Origin: Bacillus pumilus
GTDB lineage: Bacteria > Bacillota > Bacilli > Bacillales > Bacillaceae
Direction: 5' to 3'
DNA: 64,000 nucleotides
NCBI RefSeq assembly: GCF_038738535.1
Contig: NZ_CP046128.1
Location: 2,108,001-2,172,000, forward strand
Position numbers and translations under genes: made by a program
Shown: positions 18,757 to 27,278 of the stretch, piece after piece
How the letters are laid out: the number at the start of each line of letters is the position of its first letter
Numbering within the stretch: position 1 is the first letter of the stretch
Notes under the pieces: generated by a model
Seen by the model: only the letters and a program-made list of their open reading frames with translations
What the model was told of the DNA's origin: nothing
The model's database searches: none

Positions 18757-19673
18757 ACGTCCACTCCCCGCCTCCATTTCATCTCTTGTCCGTCTTGGTC
18801 ATATATCCGCCCGATCGTGCCGGGACCATTCTTGCGATTTAATTCAACATATCGTTCAAACACTCGAAGCTCCCATAACGGCTTCAATGATGGACGTTTA
18901 TACACATCTTCAAGTGAATAGCCATGAGCTGAGACGATAATGGTGACCCCAGCATGAATCGCTTCTAAAAGTGCCTGTACATCCTCGCTTTTTCCGATTT
19001 CATCAACAATCATGACCTCTGGACTCATAGACCGAATCATCATCATCAAACCTTCAGCCTTTGGACATGCATCGAGCACATCAACCCGGTGTCCAAACTG
19101 GTGCTGCGGCACCCCTCTTATACATCCGGCGATTTCAGAACGCTCATCTATAATGCCTGTTTTTTTAGGAGGAATTGCTCTTCTGCCAGTACTAGCCAGT
19201 CTTGCTACATCTCGCAATAATGTCGTTTTCCCTGTTTGCGGTGGACCGATGATGAGTGTATTGCACCAGTGCTCGTCATATAAATAAGGAAGAAAGGGAA
19301 GCGCAATCCCAATTTTTTCTTTTGCGATGCGGATATTAAATGAAGAGATATCTCTTAATCCTTTGACAATGCCGTTTTCAACGATCACCTTTCCTGCAAG
19401 TCCCACCCGGTGTCCGCCAGATATGGTGATGTAGCCTTGCTTTAGCTCCTCTTCAAGTGTGTACATGCTGTAATTGCTCAGCCTGCCTAATAGCTGAGAC
19501 GCATCTTCTCCTGTTGTGCGATAAGAAAGAAAGCGCGGTTTTCCTCTTTGCATCAATTCAATAGGACGATCCGTGCGAATGCGGATTTCTTCTATTTGAT
19601 CCCATTCTGCTTCTTTTAGCAGTCTAAGTTCTTGTCCAATCGAGTGCGGGAGAATATCCAACAAACTCCGCAA
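18750..19673 (-). CDS. spoIIIAA: Stage III sporulation protein AA (secretion-type ATPase)
   Basis: AAA ATPase that resembles type II/IV secretion ATPases and powers the SpoIIIA channel. In 307 residues, Walker A GPPQTGKT is at 143-150, Walker B is VMIVDEIG, and a PKKTGIIDERSEIAG segment lies between. AAGGAGGGGAA precedes the start. It is the first gene of the spoIIIA operon. Confidence 0.97.
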   Translation of the reverse strand: MRSLLDILPHSIGQELRLLKEAEWDQIEEIRIRTDRPIELMQRGKPRFLSYRTTGEDASQLLGRLSNYSMYTLEEELKQGYITISGGHRVGLAGKVIVENGIVKGLRDISSFNIRIAKEKIGIALPFLPYLYDEHWCNTLIIGPPQTGKTTLLRDVARLASTGRRAIPPKKTGIIDERSEIAGCIRGVPQHQFGHRVDVLDACPKAEGLMMMIRSMSPEVMIVDEIGKSEDVQALLEAIHAGVTIIVSAHGYSLEDVYKRPSLKPLWELRVFERYVELNRKNGPGTIGRIYDQDGQEMKWRRGVDVC

Positions 19674-19702
19674 CGAATTCCCCTCCTTTTTTTCTTCTCT
19701 AA

Positions 19703-19730
19703 AATGTATGATGGGAGTCGTTAATTATGC
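19703..19730 (-). promoter_or_regulatory. SigE-type promoter of the spoIIIA operon
   Basis: On the minus strand GCATAATT (-35 like) and CATACATT (-10) are 12 bases apart, matching the mother-cell SigE consensus (KMATATT, CATACAHT). It lies 30 bases upstream of spoIIIAA. The B. subtilis operon is known to be SigE-dependent. Confidence 0.8.
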
Positions 19731-19739
19731 CAAGCCGTT

Positions 19740-20021
19740 TCACTTATAAATCCCAACAAGAATAAACACGACACCAATGAAAATAAAGACGAGCTTGGCA
19801 TAGGATAACTGCCCTGCAATTTGATAGATTCCAATCGTCATCGTGATAATAAAAATGAGCGGCCCAATGATCGCCAATATACTATTGATGACAACCGCTT
19901 TTCGAACGTCATTTGTGACTAAAATGAGGATGGCGGCCGTCAGTTCAATCGCGGCCGATAAGAACCTCATGCCTGCCATTGCAGCTACTGATGGGTGTAT
20001 GCCTGGGAGAAATTGTTTCAT
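19740..20021 (-). CDS. yqhV: Small membrane protein YqhV
   Basis: Three hydrophobic segments in 93 residues (RFLSAAIELTAAILILV, VINSILAIIGPLIFII, KLVFIFIGVVFILVGIY) indicate an integral membrane protein. The function is unknown. It occupies the same place as yqhV of B. subtilis, between efp and spoIIIAA, and may be transcribed with the latter. Confidence 0.85.
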   Translation of the reverse strand: MKQFLPGIHPSVAAMAGMRFLSAAIELTAAILILVTNDVRKAVVINSILAIIGPLIFIITMTIGIYQIAGQLSYAKLVFIFIGVVFILVGIYK

Positions 20022-20156
20022 ATAGAACCTCCAGCTTTTTTTACACTATATGCTTGTCTAGCTGGAAGTAGTCTTGTTTTTCAGAAAGGAAGAGAGATGA
20101 ATGAGAGAATTGAGAGAAGGTCTGCCTTTTGAGGAGTCTTACATGTTTTACAATAA

Positions 20157-20186
20157 AAAAAGACTGTAAACACGACGTTTACAGTC
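20157..20186 (-). terminator. Duplicated terminator, distal copy (repeat 1)
   Basis: GACTGTAAAC/GTTTACAGTC 10-bp perfect stem with a 5-base loop. On the minus strand a T run follows. It is a near-identical copy (29 of 30 bases) of the hairpin at 20362-20391, placed on the other side of the repeat element. Confidence 0.85.
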
Positions 20187-20188
20187 AA

Positions 20189-20359
20189 AGCGTGTAGACA
20201 AACCCTCGCATTCGGTGTCAGTCCTGCGCGCCGATGCTCACGAATGGCAAATTCGCTCCGCTTCGGTGCTCGTCCTTCCTAGACTTCAAAGGTTTTCTAT
20301 CACGCTGAAAAGAAGGCAAAGGGCTAAAATAAACGTCATTTTAGCCCTTTGTCAACAAT
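20189..20359. repeat. ~170 bp intergenic repeat, copy 1 (MITE-like)
   Basis: The same sequence, about nine-tenths identical by eye, occurs at 25711-25886. The ends are imperfect inverted repeats TGTAGACAAA (20193-20202) and TTTGTCAACA (20348-20357). Inside are AGCGTG...CACGCT arms, a CATTCG...CGAATG pair, and a strong AAAGGGCTAAAAT stem-loop near the right end. No coding frame is supported. It sits between efp and yqhV and is flanked by two copies of the local terminator. Confidence 0.85.
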
Positions 20360-20361
20360 CT

Positions 20362-20391
20362 AAAAAGACTGTAAACACGAGGTTTACAGTC
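20362..20391 (-). terminator. Terminator of efp, proximal copy
   Basis: GACTGTAAAC/GTTTACAGTC stem followed by TTTTT on the minus strand, 13 bases after the efp stop codon. Confidence 0.92.
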
Positions 20392-20403
20392 TTTCTTCGT
20401 TCA

Positions 20404-20961
20404 TTACGCTCTTGACACGTATGAACCGTCTGATGTATTAATGACTAGTTTATCTCCTTGGTTCACAAAGAAAGGAACGTTGACGATTAAACCAGTTTCA
20501 GTTTTTGCAGGTTTTGAGCCGCCTGATGTTGTGTCACCTTTAATACCAGGCTCTGTTTCTACTACTTCTAGTTCTACCGTGTTTGGAAGTTCTACTCCAA
20601 GTGTTTCAGCACCGTACATCACAATTTGAACCGACATATTTTCTAGCAAATATTTCAGCTCATCTTTAATTTGTGTTTCACTTAGTTCAAGCTGCTCATA
20701 AGAACTTGTATCCATGAAGACATGCTGGTCGCCATTTGCGTACAAGTACTGCATTGTTTTTGTTTCAATTTGAGCTTTCGCTACTTTTTCGCCTGCACGG
20801 AATGTTTTTTCTTGAATGGCACCAGTACGCAGGTTACGCAGTTTCGAACGAACAAACGCTGCGCCTTTCCCTGGCTTTACGTGTTGGAAATCCACTACAC
20901 GCCAAATACCGCCGTCCACTTCAATTGTCAGGCCTGTACGAAAATCGTTTACTGAAATCAT
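20404..20961 (-). CDS. efp: Translation elongation factor P
   Basis: Rescues ribosomes stalled at polyproline. The 185 residues form three beta-barrel domains. The modified lysine is Lys32 in KPGKGAAF, the site that carries 5-aminopentanol in B. subtilis. The C-terminal domain ends [17 protein letters not shown]. It is 25 bases downstream of the pepQ-like gene, probably in one operon. Confidence 0.97.
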
Positions 20962-20986
20962 TTTGTCATCCTCCTACATTTCACCA

Positions 20987-22048
20987 TCATAATATGATAA
21001 GTTCTTTCGGTGAGTGGGTCAATCGTTTATTGCCGTCAGCTGTCAGGACAATATCATCCTCAATTCTCACGCCGCCGACATCCGGCAAGTAAATTCCCGG
21101 CTCAACTGTCACGACCATTCCTTCTTCTAAGACGACCTCTGATCGTGAGGAAAGGCCTGGCGCTTCATGTACTTCCATCCCTAGCCCGTGGCCAGTTGAG
21201 TGCCCGAAGTATTGACCATAGCCATACTTTTCAATGATGTCACGTGTGATGCGATCAGCTTCTTTTCCTGTTAAGCCTGGCTTGATTCTATCCACACCAG
21301 CGTTTTCTGCTTCTAATACGATATGATAAATTTCCTTTAGCTTATCGCTCGGTGTGCCGACAGCAATCGTTCTTGTCATATCAGAACAATAACCTTTATA
21401 GTAAGCACCAAAATCGAGTGTGACTAAATCACCAGATTCAATCACCTTTTCACTCGCTCTTCCGTGCGGCAGGCTTGAACGAACACCTGAGGCGACAATC
21501 ATATCGAATGAAGATCCTTCAGCGCCTTCTTTTCTCATGAAAAATTCAAGCTCGTTCATGACAGCAATTTCCGTCAAGCCCGGCTTGATGTAAGTGAGAA
21601 TATGATCAAAGGCGTGATCTGCAATCTTCGCAGCTTCCTCTAATATCTTAATCTCTTCACTAGACTTAATCAAGCGCAACTTTTCAACTGATTCTGAGAC
21701 CGGAACAAGCTCTATATCGCCTGCTTTATCTGCATACTGCTGGTACGTGGCAAATGTCATATGATGTTGTTCAAACCCAAGGCGTTTTATCCCAAATTCC
21801 TTTGCCGTTTGGACTGCGGTTTCCACGATGTTTCCTTTATGTTCAATAATGTCGTAGCCTTTTACTTGGTCCTTTGCTTGCTCTGTATAACGGAAATCCG
21901 TGATAAAAGCTGCCTGGTCCTTTGAAACAACTGCAAGACCGGCTGAGCCAGTAAAGCTGGTCATGTACTGTAAATTAAAGCTGCTCGTAATGACAAGACC
22001 ATCGATCTCTAATTCAGATAAAAGTGCTTTTAACTTTTCAAGTTTCAT
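20987..22048 (-). CDS. yqhT: M24-family Xaa-Pro dipeptidase-like aminopeptidase (YqhT)
   Basis: Metallopeptidase predicted to remove N-terminal residues preceding proline. The 353-residue pita-bread fold has metal ligands in TLDFGAYYKGYCSDMT, HSTGHGLGMEVHE, VTVEPGIYLP and GVRIEDDI. An N-terminal creatinase-like domain spans about 1-125. Its start overlaps the aroQ stop, so it is in the aroQ-yqhT-efp operon. Confidence 0.93.
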   Translation of the reverse strand: MKLEKLKALLSELEIDGLVITSSFNLQYMTSFTGSAGLAVVSKDQAAFITDFRYTEQAKDQVKGYDIIEHKGNIVETAVQTAKEFGIKRLGFEQHHMTFATYQQYADKAGDIELVPVSESVEKLRLIKSSEEIKILEEAAKIADHAFDHILTYIKPGLTEIAVMNELEFFMRKEGAEGSSFDMIVASGVRSSLPHGRASEKVIESGDLVTLDFGAYYKGYCSDMTRTIAVGTPSDKLKEIYHIVLEAENAGVDRIKPGLTGKEADRITRDIIEKYGYGQYFGHSTGHGLGMEVHEAPGLSSRSEVVLEEGMVVTVEPGIYLPDVGGVRIEDDIVLTADGNKRLTHSPKELIIL

Positions 22049-22488
22049 GATACTGCTCCCCCTTCACTCACTAAATAACGAATCGCCAATTTATACCCTT
22101 CTAAACCAAGACCAACGATTTGCCCTTGGCATACTGGAGCAAGTACAGAATGATGGCGGAATTCCTCTCTCTTATGAACGTTTGAGATATGTACTTCGAC
22201 GACGGATAAAGAAATACTTGCAATGGCATCTCTCAGCGCATAGCTGTAGTGTGTAAAAGCACCCGGGTTAAACACGACTCCATCGTACTGATCTTCTGCC
22301 TCGTGGAGCGCATCAATCAAATCCCCTTCGTGATTCGATTGAAAGAACGTTAACTGGATATTGGCTCTTTCTGCAAACTGGAACAAATCCGTTTCTAAAT
22401 CTGTCAGCGTCTTACTTCCGTAAACAGCCGGCTCTCTTTTGCCAAGCCTATTTAAATTGGGCCCATTCAGCACAAGAAAATGAGGCAT
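22045..22488 (-). CDS. aroQ: Type II 3-dehydroquinate dehydratase
   Basis: Converts 3-dehydroquinate to 3-dehydroshikimate in the shikimate pathway. The 147-residue flavodoxin-like dodecameric enzyme has NGPNLNRLGKREPAVYG at the N terminus, QSNHEGDLIDALHEA, NPGAFTHYSYALRDA and VEVHISNVHKREEFRHHS. It is called yqhS in B. subtilis. Confidence 0.96.
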   Translation of the reverse strand: MPHFLVLNGPNLNRLGKREPAVYGSKTLTDLETDLFQFAERANIQLTFFQSNHEGDLIDALHEAEDQYDGVVFNPGAFTHYSYALRDAIASISLSVVEVHISNVHKREEFRHHSVLAPVCQGQIVGLGLEGYKLAIRYLVSEGGAVS

Positions 22489-22596
22489 ACAACCACTCCT
22501 TCACCCTAATTCAATCTATATCGAGATCTGTTTCTTTTTCCTTAGAAACCTTTCGTTTCCAAAAATATTTTATCATATGAATAGGTGATTTACACT

Positions 22597-23124
22597 TTAT
22601 TCTGTCTTTTTCCCGAGAGCCCTTGCAAGCTTCTGACTCGTTAATTCATTATATTCAAACGAAATACTGTACCCGACAAACATGCCATATAAAATATATA
22701 GGCAAAATGTCGTGATGATGGTGCTTTGCTGCAAATCTTGGACTTGCTTTACATCTGGGAAAATCGGATTAAATACGTAAAAAACGAGCAGCCATAAAAG
22801 CGCGCCATATATCAGCCCCATCCAATAGCCTTTGATTCGTTTTAAAACCCCATAATAAATAAAGGCTGCTCCAATCGATAAAACCCCTAAAAGCACAATA
22901 CTAATAAAAGTGCCAAGTCCTCCCTTTTTCCACTCTCCGAGCACAAATGGCTGAAGGAGCATATTGGGACTCACCTCTGAGAAATGAAACATATGGGTCA
23001 GAAACCCGATAAAGCCCCAAAAAACACCGCCAACAAAGCCTGTCGCAGCTGCTCTTGCCAACAGCGATGACGTTTGTACAGACTGATTTTTTTCTTCTTG
23101 GTTTTTCTTTTCATCACGTTTCAT
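22597..23124 (-). CDS. yqhR: YqhR-family membrane protein
   Basis: In 175 residues, a charged Lys/Glu-rich start is followed by four hydrophobic segments (about 28-48, 70-92, 98-118, 140-160). The function is unknown. It is divergent from yqhQ across a 222-base gap. Confidence 0.88.
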   Translation of the reverse strand: MKRDEKKNQEEKNQSVQTSSLLARAAATGFVGGVFWGFIGFLTHMFHFSEVSPNMLLQPFVLGEWKKGGLGTFISIVLLGVLSIGAAFIYYGVLKRIKGYWMGLIYGALLWLLVFYVFNPIFPDVKQVQDLQQSTIITTFCLYILYGMFVGYSISFEYNELTSQKLARALGKKTE

Positions 23125-23346
23125 TTGTGAACACCTCCAGCAAGTAGTATGTCCAAAATGTCATAAAAAAAAGGATTTCCATCCGTGAGTGTAAAATTTT
23201 TATAACAGGGTATACTGGCTAAAAAGAGGTAGATAGAATTCTAGTAGATAATCGACCTGTGCGCTAGTGATTTCCCCTCATTTCCTGTACAATAAAGGTA
23301 TAAGGAAATGCATGTAAATTACAGGAAACAGGCAGGTTGATGAAAT

Positions 23347-24303
23347 ATGTCCAATCAAACAAAACGTCCAGCATATGGAGGGCAGGCAGTTGTCGAAGGT
23401 GTCATGTTTGGAGGTAAAAAGAACTATGTGACAGCGATTCGGCGAAAGGATCAGTCCATTGAGTTTTTGAAGCTTCCCCGGACCTCCAATAAACGAACCG
23501 CCTTTCTCAAGAAAATTCCCTTTGTCAGGGGTGTTGCTGCACTTGTTGAAGCAAGCGCAAATGGCAGTAAGCACTTGAACTTCTCCAGCGAGCGCTATGA
23601 CTTAGATCCTTCAGAAGATCATACTCTTGAAAAAGAACAAAAAAGCTCGAAATTATCCATGATTTTCGGCATTGCTGTAATCGGAGTTCTCTCTCTTCTC
23701 TTTAGTAAATTTGTCTTTACCCTAGTACCTGTCTTTTTAGCTGAACTGGTGCGGCCCGTCTTTTCAGGGAATTTCGCACAAATCGCAGTGGAAACATTCT
23801 TTAAACTGGTCCTGTTATTAGGCTACATTTACTTTATTTCCATGACCCCTTTAATTAAAAGGGTATTTCAATATCATGGCGCAGAACATAAAGTCATAAA
23901 CTGCTATGAACAGAATCTTGACATCACAGTGGAAAATGTCCAAAAACAATCACGGCTGCATTATCGATGCGGCAGCAGCTTTATTTTATTCACTGTCATT
24001 GTCGGAATGTTCGTCTATTTACTCGTACCGACAGATCCTTTATGGGTGAGAGTTCTGAATCGCTTGGCGCTCATTCCGGTTGTTCTGGGCATTTCATTTG
24101 AAGTGCTTCAGCTCACGAACAAACTCCGAGAAGTGCCTGTGCTTAAAGTGCTTGGCTATCCTGGCCTTTGGCTGCAATTGCTCACAACAAAAGAACCCTC
24201 TGGCGATCAAGTCGAGGTAGCCATTGCAAGTTTTAATGAACTTCTTCGTTTAGAGGAAGCGTCTGAGAAACAAGCGTCAGATTCTGCTCATCAAGTGATC
24301 TAA
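23347..24303 (+). CDS. yqhQ: DUF1385 membrane protein YqhQ
   Basis: In 318 residues, GGQAVVEGVMF is the family-defining N-terminal motif. Several membrane segments follow (about 98-135, 150-175, 212-245), with FQYHGAEHKVINCYE in the cytoplasmic loop. The biochemical role is not established. It is followed by yqhP on the same strand. Confidence 0.93.
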   Translation: MSNQTKRPAYGGQAVVEGVMFGGKKNYVTAIRRKDQSIEFLKLPRTSNKRTAFLKKIPFVRGVAALVEASANGSKHLNFSSERYDLDPSEDHTLEKEQKSSKLSMIFGIAVIGVLSLLFSKFVFTLVPVFLAELVRPVFSGNFAQIAVETFFKLVLLLGYIYFISMTPLIKRVFQYHGAEHKVINCYEQNLDITVENVQKQSRLHYRCGSSFILFTVIVGMFVYLLVPTDPLWVRVLNRLALIPVVLGISFEVLQLTNKLREVPVLKVLGYPGLWLQLLTTKEPSGDQVEVAIASFNELLRLEEASEKQASDSAHQVI

Positions 24304-24341
24304 CTTATAAATCCGGTAAATTCCTTCGGAGGTGGACAGTT

Positions 24342-24737
24342 ATGAATCGCCGAGTACATCCTGCTTTTACCATTATTTTCGCTTTAGGTATTTTGGGATT
24401 TGTGTATTTACTCACAACGAATCCAGGCAGACTTTTTACAATGCTGCTATCAGTTGTGATCATTGGAGCGGCTCTATTTTTCCTATTTAGATGGCTGATG
24501 AATCGAAGAACTGGAACAGAGGGCAATCTTTATCGTAAAGCAGTCAAACAATCAAAACGTCGCTACCAGCAGCCTAAACCAAAAACGAAAAGCCAGATGA
24601 AAAATCGGGTCACTCATTTGCGAAGCGTGCCGACTGACCACAAGTCTAAGCCCGTCCTTCTCAAAAAGAAAAGCCAAACACAGTTAACTGTGATTGAAGG
24701 CAAGAAAAACAAAAAGAAAAATCGCGCCTTGTTTTAA
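24342..24737 (+). CDS. yqhP: Small membrane protein YqhP
   Basis: The first ~55 residues of this 131-residue protein hold two hydrophobic helices, and the rest is a strongly basic tail rich in Lys, Arg and Gln. CGGAGGTGG lies upstream of the ATG. It converges on yqhO, which it overlaps by 4 bases. The function is unknown. Confidence 0.85.
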   Translation: MNRRVHPAFTIIFALGILGFVYLLTTNPGRLFTMLLSVVIIGAALFFLFRWLMNRRTGTEGNLYRKAVKQSKRRYQQPKPKTKSQMKNRVTHLRSVPTDHKSKPVLLKKKSQTQLTVIEGKKNKKKNRALF

Positions 24738-25609
24738 AATGTCCAGCTTTTTAAAAATTGCTCGGCTTTCTGTCTGCCTAGATCGACAAGCGCCTTTTTC
24801 TTTTCTGTCATCAGATGAAAATCAGTGGCAATGACGTGTTCTACAGGAATAAAAATAACATGACGTTCGTGTTTTGTGGCAATGTGTCTTTCGTCATGAG
24901 CACCACGCATCGTTTCAAAAAGAGCGCCAAACAGTTCAAACGCATTGCGGATGGAGTGTTGAGGGCGTTCTTTTTCGTTTGGGGTTAATGTGACACCGAC
25001 GAACGGTCTTTTTTTCTCTTCCGCAAACAACCAAATTGGAAAATTGCTAAGCACTCCTCCATCCACAATGGTACAAATGCCTTTTGATGACCTTAGTTTG
25101 ACAGGCTCGAAAAAATACGGCAGGCTGCAACTCATCCGAATCGCCCTTGCAACGGAAAAGCGCTCTGGATTTAAGCCGTATGAAGGAAGGTCGTCTGGCA
25201 GCACGAGGATTTTCCCATTTGTTAAATCAGAGGCAACAATTTTCAGCGAATCTTTTTTGAGATCTCCAAATACGGTGACCCCTTTTCGTTTCAACACATC
25301 TGTCAGCCATTTTTCCAGCCGGTCGCCTTTGTACAGACCGAGGCGCCAGTAAATGGATACCCACCTGAGCATTTTAAACGGAATGAATTGGCATCTCCTA
25401 TCAAGCAAATGATGTTCATCCATTTCATCTAAAAGCTCCCGAATCTCCTGACTTGTAAAACCTGCTGCGATGAGTGAAGCAATGATCGCTCCAGCACTTG
25501 TACCAGCAAGACGGACAAATTGATATCCTCTCGCTTCAAGCGCTTCATAGGCACCCGCAAGTGCTGCCCCTTTAATGCCTCCACCTGAGAACACACCATC
25601 TATCTTCAT
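24734..25609 (-). CDS. yqhO: Patatin-like phospholipase YqhO
   Basis: Predicted lipid acyl hydrolase. Its 291 residues include the oxyanion loop FSGGGIKG, nucleophile motif GTSAG and catalytic Asp in DGGVLSNFP, the complete patatin dyad. The ATG at 25609 is preferred: AAGGGGG is 7 bases upstream, and an in-frame TTG lies just before it. Confidence 0.92.
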   Translation of the reverse strand: MKIDGVFSGGGIKGAALAGAYEALEARGYQFVRLAGTSAGAIIASLIAAGFTSQEIRELLDEMDEHHLLDRRCQFIPFKMLRWVSIYWRLGLYKGDRLEKWLTDVLKRKGVTVFGDLKKDSLKIVASDLTNGKILVLPDDLPSYGLNPERFSVARAIRMSCSLPYFFEPVKLRSSKGICTIVDGGVLSNFPIWLFAEEKKRPFVGVTLTPNEKERPQHSIRNAFELFGALFETMRGAHDERHIATKHERHVIFIPVEHVIATDFHLMTEKKKALVDLGRQKAEQFLKSWTF

Positions 25610-25678
25610 CAAGGAGCCCCCTTTGATATCACGCTATTAATAGTGTAAGAGCATATGCTTTCAATTAGAACTTTAATC

Positions 25679-25706
25679 AAAAAGGACACCCATGCTGAGG
25701 GTGTCC
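25679..25706 (-). terminator. Duplicated terminator, distal copy (repeat 2)
   Basis: GGACACCC/GGGTGTCC perfect 8-bp stem followed on the minus strand by TTTTT. It is a diverged copy of the hairpin at 25889-25920 on the other side of the repeat element. Confidence 0.85.
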
Positions 25707-25710
25707 TTTC

Positions 25711-25886
25711 AGCGTGTAGACAAACCCTCGCATTCGTTGTCAGGTCTGCGCTCCGGTGCTCACGAATGTCAAATTCGCTCCGCTCCGGTACTCGTCCTTC
25801 CTAGACTGCAAAGGTTTTCAAGTCACGCTGAAAAAAAAGAAGACAAAGGGCTAAAATAAAGTTCATTTTAGCCCTTTGTCAACAAT
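25711..25886. repeat. ~170 bp intergenic repeat, copy 2 (MITE-like)
   Basis: Second copy of the element at 20189-20359. It has the same ends: TGTAGACAAA (25715-25724) and TTTGTCAACA (25875-25884), AGCGTG...CACGCT arms and the AAAGGGCTAAAAT stem-loop. It lies between yqhO and mntR, again downstream of a minus-strand gene and between two copies of that locus's own terminator. No coding frame is supported. Confidence 0.85.
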
Positions 25887-25888
25887 AT

Positions 25889-25920
25889 GAAAGAACACCC
25901 TTGCTGAGGGTGTCCTTTTT
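25889..25920 (-). terminator. Terminator of mntR, proximal copy
   Basis: On the minus strand GGACACCC TCAGCAA GGGTGTTC directly follows the mntR stop codon. The stem has one G-A type mismatch compared with the distal copy at 25679. Confidence 0.75.
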
Positions 25921-25921
25921 C

Positions 25922-26356
25922 TTAAGATTCTTGATTTGTTTGTTCGTTTTTCTTTTGAATCGCTTTCAGCTGAACAGATCGCTCGTCGTTTTCTTCAAAG
26001 AATTGAACGAGATCGCCGATGCGGTCAATGCTGTTCCAGCTGAGATGATGTTCAATGCCTTCTACATCATCATAAATTTTCTCTTCATCTACACCAATGA
26101 TTCTTAAAAATTGCTCTAGCAGTTCATGTCTGTATACGAGACGTTTTCCAATTTTTTTGCCTTTCGGGGTTAAAATTAGACCACGATACTTCTCATAAAT
26201 GAGGTATTCATCTTTATCTAGCTTCTGAACCATTTTTGTTACAGAGGAGGGATGGACAGCGAGTGCTTCTGCAATATCAGAGACTCTGGCATATCCTTTT
26301 TCTTCTATCAGCATATATATTTGTTCAATGTAATCTTCCATACTAGGTGTAGTCAT
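25922..26356 (-). CDS. mntR: Manganese transport regulator MntR
   Basis: DtxR-family repressor that shuts off Mn(II) uptake genes when bound to manganese. In its 144 residues a winged helix (about 1-70) is followed by a dimerisation domain. The known metal ligands are all present at the usual positions: Asp8, Glu11, His77, Glu99, Glu102 and His103. Confidence 0.97.
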
Positions 26357-26441
26357 AAAACCCCTCCATAATGCACCTTTACTTAATAATCATAACAATT
26401 CTACACCATCGCCCATTAAAAAACAAGGAGTGTCCACTGTC

Positions 26442-27278
26442 TTAACGCTTGTAATTCCACTCGTCTGAGGCATATTTCGTTTTGGCGAGATGATGAACAA
26501 ACGCTAATTCTTCATCTGTCAGCTCATAAGGCACAAGCTCAATATTTAACCCTTTTTCAAATCCTCGTTTAAACGCAACACGCGCATCGTCTATTGTACA
26601 GGTTCGGTCTGAGATTTCATTGATGGCGACCGCTTTGTTTTTAAAGCTCCGCTGCATCCGCTCTCTCACACGGTCGTTTGGATAAAGAAATAAATCGAAC
26701 AATTTGTCCTCATCAAGGTCAATTAAGATGGAGCCGTGCTGGAGGATCACTCCTTTTTGTCTCGTTTGAGCACTGCCTGCTACCTTTCTGCCTTCTACGA
26801 CAAGCTCATACCAGGAAGGAGCATCGAAGCATACAGACGATCTTGGATTTTTTAAGCTTTCTTTTTCTTTATCTGTACGAGGAATGGCAAAATATGCATC
26901 GAGTCCCAGTTCTTTAAAGCCCTCTAAAATGCCTTCTGAAATGACGCGGTATGCCTCTGTCACCGTCGCTGGCATTTCTGGATGTTCCTCTGACACAATC
27001 ACGCTGTAGGTCAGCTCCTGATCATGAAGAACCCCCCGCCCTCCAGTTGGTCTGCGGACAAACCCAAGACCATAGCGCTCGACTGCTTCCATGTTGATTT
27101 CCTTTTCAACATGCTGAAAATACCCAACAGACAATGTCGCCGGATTCCATCCATAAAAACGGATGACAGGCGGGATGAGCTTCTCACTATGCCAATAAAG
27201 CAAGGCTTCATCCATTGCCATGTTAAAGGCTGGGTCTTGATTTCCTGTATCAATGAAACACCATTTCTCTTTTTGCAT
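26442..27278 (-). CDS. lipM: Octanoyltransferase LipM
   Basis: Transfers octanoate from acyl carrier protein to GcvH in lipoic acid synthesis. The 278-residue BPL/LipA/LipB fold has [18 protein letters not shown] and the catalytic cysteine Cys150 in SSVCFDAP, the same position as in B. subtilis LipM, plus KVAGSAQTR. It fits with the neighbouring gcv genes because GcvH is its substrate. Confidence 0.96.

Follow-up and report, generated by a model that had tools for sequence, protein, structure and literature searches.

A MITE of Bacillus pumilus set between duplicated terminator-like hairpins, probably derived from CAG-ended insertion sequences of the IS1182 family

The window, that is, the whole 64,000-nt stretch of the Bacillus pumilus genome analyzed here (NZ_CP046128.1, positions 2,108,001 to 2,172,000), carries two copies of a short element, which we call the MITE. 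The first copy adjoins an ORF that, from its sequence, we take to be efp (elongation factor P), and the second lies at the terminator of a gene that is presumably mntR. The features are listed in Table 1; G and L numbers below denote genomes and loci, G000 being the genome of the window.

Table 1. Coordinates of the two MITE copies and neighboring features in the window
Feature	Position	Strand	Remarks
Left copy of the duplicated terminator hairpin	20157..20186	.	29/30 identical to the right copy, folds; single orthologous hairpin in 13/17 pumilus-group genomes
177-bp MITE	20187..20363	+	Ends AAAGCGTGTAGACAAACC ... CCTTTGTCAACAATCTAA; from genome-wide copies and ends
Left terminal inverted repeat	20187..20204	+	Own-genome copies with 0-3 mismatches; resembles IS-A ends
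Right-end internal hairpin	20315..20353	+	GGCAAAGGGCTAAAAT/ATTTTAGCCCTTTGTC; compensatory changes keep the stem in the family
Right terminal inverted repeat	20346..20363	+	Hairpin, then TTTGTC.AC...CTGA, as at the IS-A right end
Right copy of the duplicated hairpin, predicted efp terminator	20362..20391	.	Single-copy equivalent in relatives
Presumed efp (elongation factor P)	20404..20961	-	ORF; adjoins the targeted hairpin
Second copy, left hairpin	25682..25708	.	AAGGACACCC...GGGTGTCCTT
Second MITE copy, 182 bp	25709..25890	+	
Second copy, right hairpin	25891..25917	.	L030: 2 mismatches over 27 against the left one

An earlier note, made from the sequence alone, had described an element of about 170 bp with a 165-base core between two almost identical hairpins. 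We found both hairpins to fold as described, and short inverted ends were present where the note had put them (TGTAGACAAA at 20193-20202, TTTGTCAACA at 20348-20357). The element is real, but the element proper is longer than noted, with 177 bp running from TCA/CAG to CTG/TGA. The family consensus ends are TCAGCGTGTAGACAAACC...CCTTTGTCAACAATCTGA, and the first window copy ends in AAAG and CTAA. Its left hairpin keeps the A-tract of the locus, the T-tract side being replaced by the MITE. As the note had also held, the hairpin is specific to its locus, since the second copy has its own pair, GGACACCC...GGGTGTCC, unlike that of the first. Scanning all 64 kb of the window for near-identical 24-mer pairs (at least 23/24 identical, spaced 60-400 bp) gave only two, at 20157/+205 and 25686/+209. 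Both are the flanks of the two MITE copies, which excludes chance as the source of the paired flanks.

A search of the own genome returned about 40 places (70 rows, with many in which the internal hairpin matched itself). Thirty copies are complete (the window copy and L009-L037, with L037 counted despite the partial loss of its right end), and they were aligned as a 177-bp family. The left two thirds of the MITE form a long imperfect foldback, and the right end carries a hairpin with a 16-bp stem. Among 62 copies, this stem occurs in 23 distinct forms, with 74-100% of stems paired at each position and compensatory changes such as GC/AT at pair 7 and GC/CG at pair 9. A scan of window positions 19000-27000 with Rfam gave no family at gathering score over the MITE, the one sub-threshold match lying beside it. 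According to gene context, 14 of the 30 own copies lie between convergent genes, 13 in tandem pairs (9 sense, 4 antisense) and 3 elsewhere. We considered a strand-biased, RNA-like insertion and rejected it, as 9 sense against 4 antisense copies in tandem pairs is no clear bias. In one variant copy, L078 (G000:C1:832427), a terminator-like hairpin of the locus, GGACTGAT...ATCAGTCC, serves as the right-end hairpin, and the left flank holds just one arm of it.

The note had suggested that the element targets or copies rho-independent terminators, which our results support, and had proposed checking whether further copies lie between similar hairpin pairs that differ between loci. This check, and that of empty sites below, came out in favor of the reading in the majority of cases. 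By a strict score, 22 of the 30 complete own copies lie between near-identical, locus-specific, terminator-like hairpins, as do 25 of 33 copies from other genomes, giving 47/63 complete loci over the genome and the genus. As a control, each left flank was compared with the right flanks of all other loci; 2 of 3906 such mismatched pairs scored as high (L023/L058 and L062/L011), and each of these seems to be one place seen in two genomes. Of the own copies failing the strict score, L023, L028, L029 and L035 have matching stems with loops changed or carrying indels, L011 keeps one hairpin arm only in its left flank, and the left and right flanks of L010, L025 and L026 do not match. The failures in other genomes are L062, L064, L071, L075, L184, L185, L187 and L188. 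Recombination between copies could account for the places at which the left and right hairpins differ. At L010 (G000:C1:746940), the left flanking hairpin, GGGCTAAAATTATTTTAGCCC, shares its stem with the internal hairpin of the MITE, and the right one is different.

These counts, and those given below for two longer relatives (IS-A and IS-B), refer to places, some of them orthologous, and not to independent events. Kept outside them are loci with no complete element (L038-L047 and L186 for the MITE; L117 and L146 for IS-A; L122, L123, L127, L131 and L167 for IS-B), L061 at a contig edge, L053 (the same as L014) and L189 (the same as L184).

The note had further proposed a search for strains with an empty site, and these were found, with a single hairpin in 13 of the 17 pumilus-group genomes for each window locus. 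At the efp terminator (L201-L217), the MITE lies within the hairpin in four genomes, in one orientation in our genome and L203, and in the other in L209 and L210. A complete hairpin pair is present in both L203 and L209, and L210 is cut by the contig end, so that the contrast in orientation with a hairpin pair on each side stands between L201 and L203 on the one hand and L209 on the other. The opposite orientations indicate at least two separate insertions at this terminator. The single-hairpin efp sites include that of G018, the closest relative by the efp gene, and the closest relative among the genomes compared has one hairpin at both window loci. In L213, a truncated MITE lies near efp outside the hairpin, and one hairpin is kept. 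At the mntR terminator (L351-L367), the MITE is likewise present in 4/17 genomes, with a single hairpin in the other 13. We also noticed that the loop of the single hairpin at the mntR terminator of relatives appears inverted in L352, L361 and L363 compared with L356 (GGACACCCATGCTGAGGGTGTCC in L356, GGACACCCTCAGCATGGGTGTCC in L363), which looks like an in-place flip of the hairpin. The two hairpin copies of L025 in the own genome look somewhat similar in this respect.

The exact pattern of non-MITE ends is absent from the own genome. Elsewhere, this pattern picked out sequences that begin with TCAGCTTGTCGACAAAG; a search with part of their frame then yielded two longer relatives. IS-A is 1505-1508 bp long (1489 bp in a degenerate copy), has inverted ends and holds open transposase frames in G021 and G022. 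IS-B is 1538-1561 bp long, also with inverted ends, and is present in three full copies in the own genome. Their proteins score 477.1 (IS-A) and 479.8 bits (IS-B) with the IS1182-family model NF033551 (cut-off 270) and contain DUF772 and DDE_Tnp_1_6 domains, with matches to PF13751 and PF01609. By sequence, no relative of the IS-A protein with a solved structure was found at E up to 1. Strict hairpin duplication was observed in 6 of 12 IS-A rows and 41 of 44 IS-B rows, while 0 of 132 and 4 of 1892 control pairs, respectively, scored as high; the high-scoring IS-B controls lie between like hairpins in different genomes (e.g. L124/L171, L149/L166). Among IS-A rows without strict duplication, four are internally deleted (three with the same left neighborhood), L119 is degenerate, and L141 abuts an IS-B end. 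Two stacked insertions were seen besides: IS-B is probably inside a MITE-like internal hairpin at L156, and it lies in a hairpin beside a MITE end at L162. The left ends of IS-A and IS-B are themselves terminator-like, being hairpins followed by a T-rich run (GCTTGTAGAC-AAA-GTCTACAAGCTTTTTT), which perhaps shields the transposase gene from outside transcription.

The ends of IS-A are TCAGCTTGTAGACAAAG and, reversed, TCAGACCGTAGACAAACCCC, and those of the MITE are TCAGCGTGTAGACAAACCC and, reversed, TCAGATTGTTGACAAAGGG. The MITE is short and free of a transposase gene, with IS-A-like ends and the same target duplication. We consider IS-A and IS-B its probable autonomous partners on these sequence features, and infer that IS-A is the mobilizer. 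IS-B, with its three full copies in the own genome and the same duplications, might have moved the MITE instead, a variant that would leave the transposon reading intact. However, the motif GACAAA occurs at all four ends of IS-A and the MITE and is replaced by GAGAAA in IS-B, and the right-end layout of a hairpin followed by TTTGTC.AC...CTGA is common to IS-A and the MITE, so we regard mobilization by IS-B as unlikely. The own genome shows no IS-A, its transposases nearest to an 83-aa probe being 51% identical (IS-B), so mobility there is unexplained unless IS-A has been lost or IS-B acts across.

We weighed whether the flanking hairpins could instead be a functional tandem terminator or RNA element, copied by template switching or gene conversion and not left by transposition. 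The compensatory changes that keep the right-end stem of the MITE, and the matching stems with different loops at L023, L035, L066, L071, L184 and L187, would suit such an origin. It is nevertheless very improbable: close relatives have single-hairpin empty sites, the terminal inverted repeats resemble those of elements that encode a transposase, and IS copies of 1.5 kb are flanked by the same duplication. Terminators are insertion sites of group IIC introns, and a retro-insertion of this kind by target-primed reverse transcription might also place an element there. We give it hardly any credence: no Rfam family was found at gathering score over the MITE, the partners encode a DDE transposase, and both orientations occur at one terminator.

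To describe the geometry of the duplication, the target was rebuilt by joining the flanks, and only hairpins centred within the duplication were considered, a restriction allowed for in the null. The midpoint of the duplication lies no more than 2 bp from the hairpin axis in 45/47 MITE, 6/6 IS-A and 37/41 IS-B cases (88/94 in total), where about 9.5% would be expected by chance if the axis lay anywhere in the duplication. The two off-centre MITE cases are the window copy, which is 5 bp off in an A-run by its mutated ends, and another that is 20 bp off. Duplication lengths range from 12 to 31 bp in the 94-case set. In a raw count, at least four T were present in the 8 nt past the duplication in 43/47 MITE, 6/6 IS-A and 38/41 IS-B cases. 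We asked if the length equals the full pairing length of the hairpin including the A/T tracts, and found no support for this (r = 0.24, -0.07 and 0.33 for MITE, IS-A and IS-B). As length does not track full pairing, a cut close to where the G+C-rich stem gives way to the A/T tract fits better than one at the outermost base pair that could form, and "foot of the stem" is an approximate description of the cut site.

A long target duplication of fixed length, with a preference for the sequence or composition of terminators and no recognition of structure, would also yield duplicated hairpins. IS1202-family elements make duplications of 16-28 bp and have TGT-type ends (PMC10132070), and the MITE duplications cluster at 22.7 ± 2.7 bp. 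An IS1202 identity was in fact first suggested by the TGT ends and the long duplication, and was dropped as the partner transposase proved to be IS1182; with NF033593, the only ISNCY model compared, IS-A and IS-B reach 72 and 66 bits against a cut-off of 325. Besides the NF033551 assignment of the partners, the spread of lengths (up to 33 bp in L409), the centring on the loop and the lack of any common target sequence among the flanks, judged by eye, all speak against a fixed length, and we hold it to be improbable.

We analyzed next how widely hairpin duplication occurs in the IS1182 family. Among 200 Bacilli searched with NF033551, 54 have members over the cut-off. A set of 62 rows was classified by end type (30 loci, 20 further stretches, six plasmid stretches and six Bacillus copies): 28 are CAG...CTG, 17 are GAGGCTGGGACA-like and 17 are unclassifiable. 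The hairpin is duplicated in 21 of the 28 CAG-type rows (L382 and L147 being the same place). The other seven are L380, L384, L388, L391 (at a contig edge), L393, L403 and L373, and in L380, L388 and L403 the two flanking hairpins are different. The longest duplication is the 33 bp of L409. Whole-hairpin duplications in other Bacilli comprise six copies in G214, three in G185 and one each in G072, G062 and G133. Perfect hairpin duplications also flank a plasmid IS of Sutcliffiella (30 bp) and one of Aminobacter, an alphaproteobacterium (20 bp). The seven GAGG-type rows that belong to the first 30 loci had no repeat of 13 or more in their flanks. In a tree of 31 transposases, these seven and 16 CAG rows are split by fully supported branches (100/100), with four rows of unknown end type on each side, and duplicating and non-duplicating rows are intermixed on the CAG side. 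This suggests that the family has two modes of handling its target, which go with two deep branches.

The MITE has matches in 38/44 genus genomes compared, with only one or two weak ones in G002, G003, G026 and G040, while a DNA match to efp was found in 44/44. Carriers named among the matches listed are B. pumilus, B. safensis, B. altitudinis, B. spizizenii, B. inaquosorum and B. paralicheniformis. In phage records, no MITE match was found at the sensitivity used, and relatives of the IS-A protein were found in 24. Four plasmid records carry the MITE, two of them Stutzerimonas. Those labelled as Gram-negative (NZ_CP078511 and NZ_CP078512, Stutzerimonas stutzeri; CP063894, Klebsiella variicola) have a Bacillus-type MITE and are possibly mixed-culture or mislabelled Bacillus DNA. 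The 1997 B. subtilis genome paper reportedly described an intergenic repeat family of about 190 bp. In G035, which we take to be B. subtilis strain 168, the MITE has roughly ten places (19 matches, some being parts of one copy or hairpin self-matches). Six of these loci comprise strict hairpin pairs at L066 and L183, like stems with changed loops at L184, L185 and L187, and hairpins that do not match each other at L188. The MITE is likely to be the 190-bp repeat. Our literature searches found no paper on the 190-bp repeat and, among the matches listed, nothing relevant on MITEs in B. pumilus.

Taken together, sequence comparison gives locus-specific duplications, symmetry about the loop, single-hairpin empty sites, insertion in both orientations, and IS elements that behave likewise. 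We therefore favor, with a probability of roughly 0.85, the reading that the MITE is a miniature non-autonomous derivative of a CAG...CTG-ended IS of the IS1182 family, which inserts into and duplicates stem-loops with the IS-A transposase acting in trans. We propose that the trans-supplied transposase would bind the GACAAA-type terminal repeats and that insertion would occur in a stem-loop, mostly a rho-independent terminator hairpin. Attack would fall on the two strands at points equidistant from the hairpin axis, approximately at the border between the G+C-rich stem and the A/T tract, and repair of the gaps would then leave a copy of the whole hairpin on both sides, each strand keeping a hairpin. 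The target may be recognized as an extruded cruciform, or as a single-stranded hairpin, attacked at its 5' feet, since the duplications are symmetric and variable in length with no evident shared sequence. The note had called the 30-base duplication too long for a usual target repeat. That holds, but the duplication would be of an insertion type and not the work of a new copying system, because a long hairpin-centred duplication is how this IS1182 branch inserts.

The flank sequences show that after insertion the A-tract stays with the left hairpin copy and the T-tract with the right one, so transcription from either side meets a hairpin and a T-run beyond the element. The targeted hairpins presumably terminate transcription. 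Duplication may thus be favored in that each converging transcript still meets a hairpin with an intact T-tract, and this retained hairpin and T-run on the far side may be the reason so many copies persist. With somewhat less confidence than the reading above, we also think it fairly probable that the CAG-ended branch, from Bacilli to Alphaproteobacteria, reads hairpins by their shape and duplicates them entire, a structure-directed DDE transposition that would use terminators as safe harbors and rebuild a working terminator on the far side, with a MITE widespread in Bacillus as the B. subtilis repeat of about 190 bp. This would account for a repeat that is abundant yet anonymous in a model genus. 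It would make hairpin reading by a transposase testable in living cells, the targets being defined, plentiful and present in Bacillus, which is easy to handle in the laboratory, and an element that inserts into terminators and then restores them would, if this is true, be a naturally gentle insertion tool.

Among known systems, ISEfa7 of Enterococcus faecium (IS1182 family) has a transposase about 58-59% identical to that of IS-A over its full length, a left end of CAGACTGTAGACAAAG and a place in the CAG branch of the tree (L374). It differs in that no hairpin duplication was found at L373, L374 or L376; at L375, the right end was not found. The IS1202 long-duplication group resembles our elements in its unusually long duplications (16-28 bp) and TGT-type ends, but belongs to another transposase family, and its authors report finding no specific target (PMC10132070).

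The closest likeness is to IS1272 and TnSha1 of the IS1182 family, which insert into stem-loops and delete them (PMC4923244, PMC5678879). Their stem-loop targets are without shared sequence, several were shown to be terminators, and for TnSha1, insertion into a single terminator in either orientation is reported (PMC5678879, PMC4923244). The earlier note had seen here the best candidate for an undescribed system; the targeting of stem-loops by IS1182 members is thus already published, although with deletion of the hairpin in those accounts. As described there, the hairpin is replaced or partly lost on insertion of IS1272 or TnSha1 and no target duplication is made, whereas here the whole hairpin is duplicated, in 47/63 MITE, 6/12 IS-A and 41/44 IS-B rows, which is at odds with stem-loop replacement of the IS1272 type. 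IS1272 is also longer (1,945 bp). This size matches that of the GAGGCTGGGACA-ended branch, set apart from the CAG-ended branch with full support in the tree, and IS1272, placed by size since the tree was built from other sequences, would fall there. Among the matches listed by searches of titles and abstract openings, which covered few subscription journals and not ISfinder, whole-hairpin duplication by IS1182 elements was seen only as a model in PMC5678879. This is the "pathway b" of Wan et al. 2017 (Fig 13), in which attacking a cruciform at its 5' feet would lead to duplication of the entire stem-loop. The CAG branch appears to fit this pathway, with cuts on the two strands flanking the hairpin and repair doubling it. 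"Pathway b" is a drawn alternative for which we saw no example in the Discussion of that paper (PMC5678879), and the elements described here supply many comparative examples of such whole stem-loop duplication by a DDE-transposase element.
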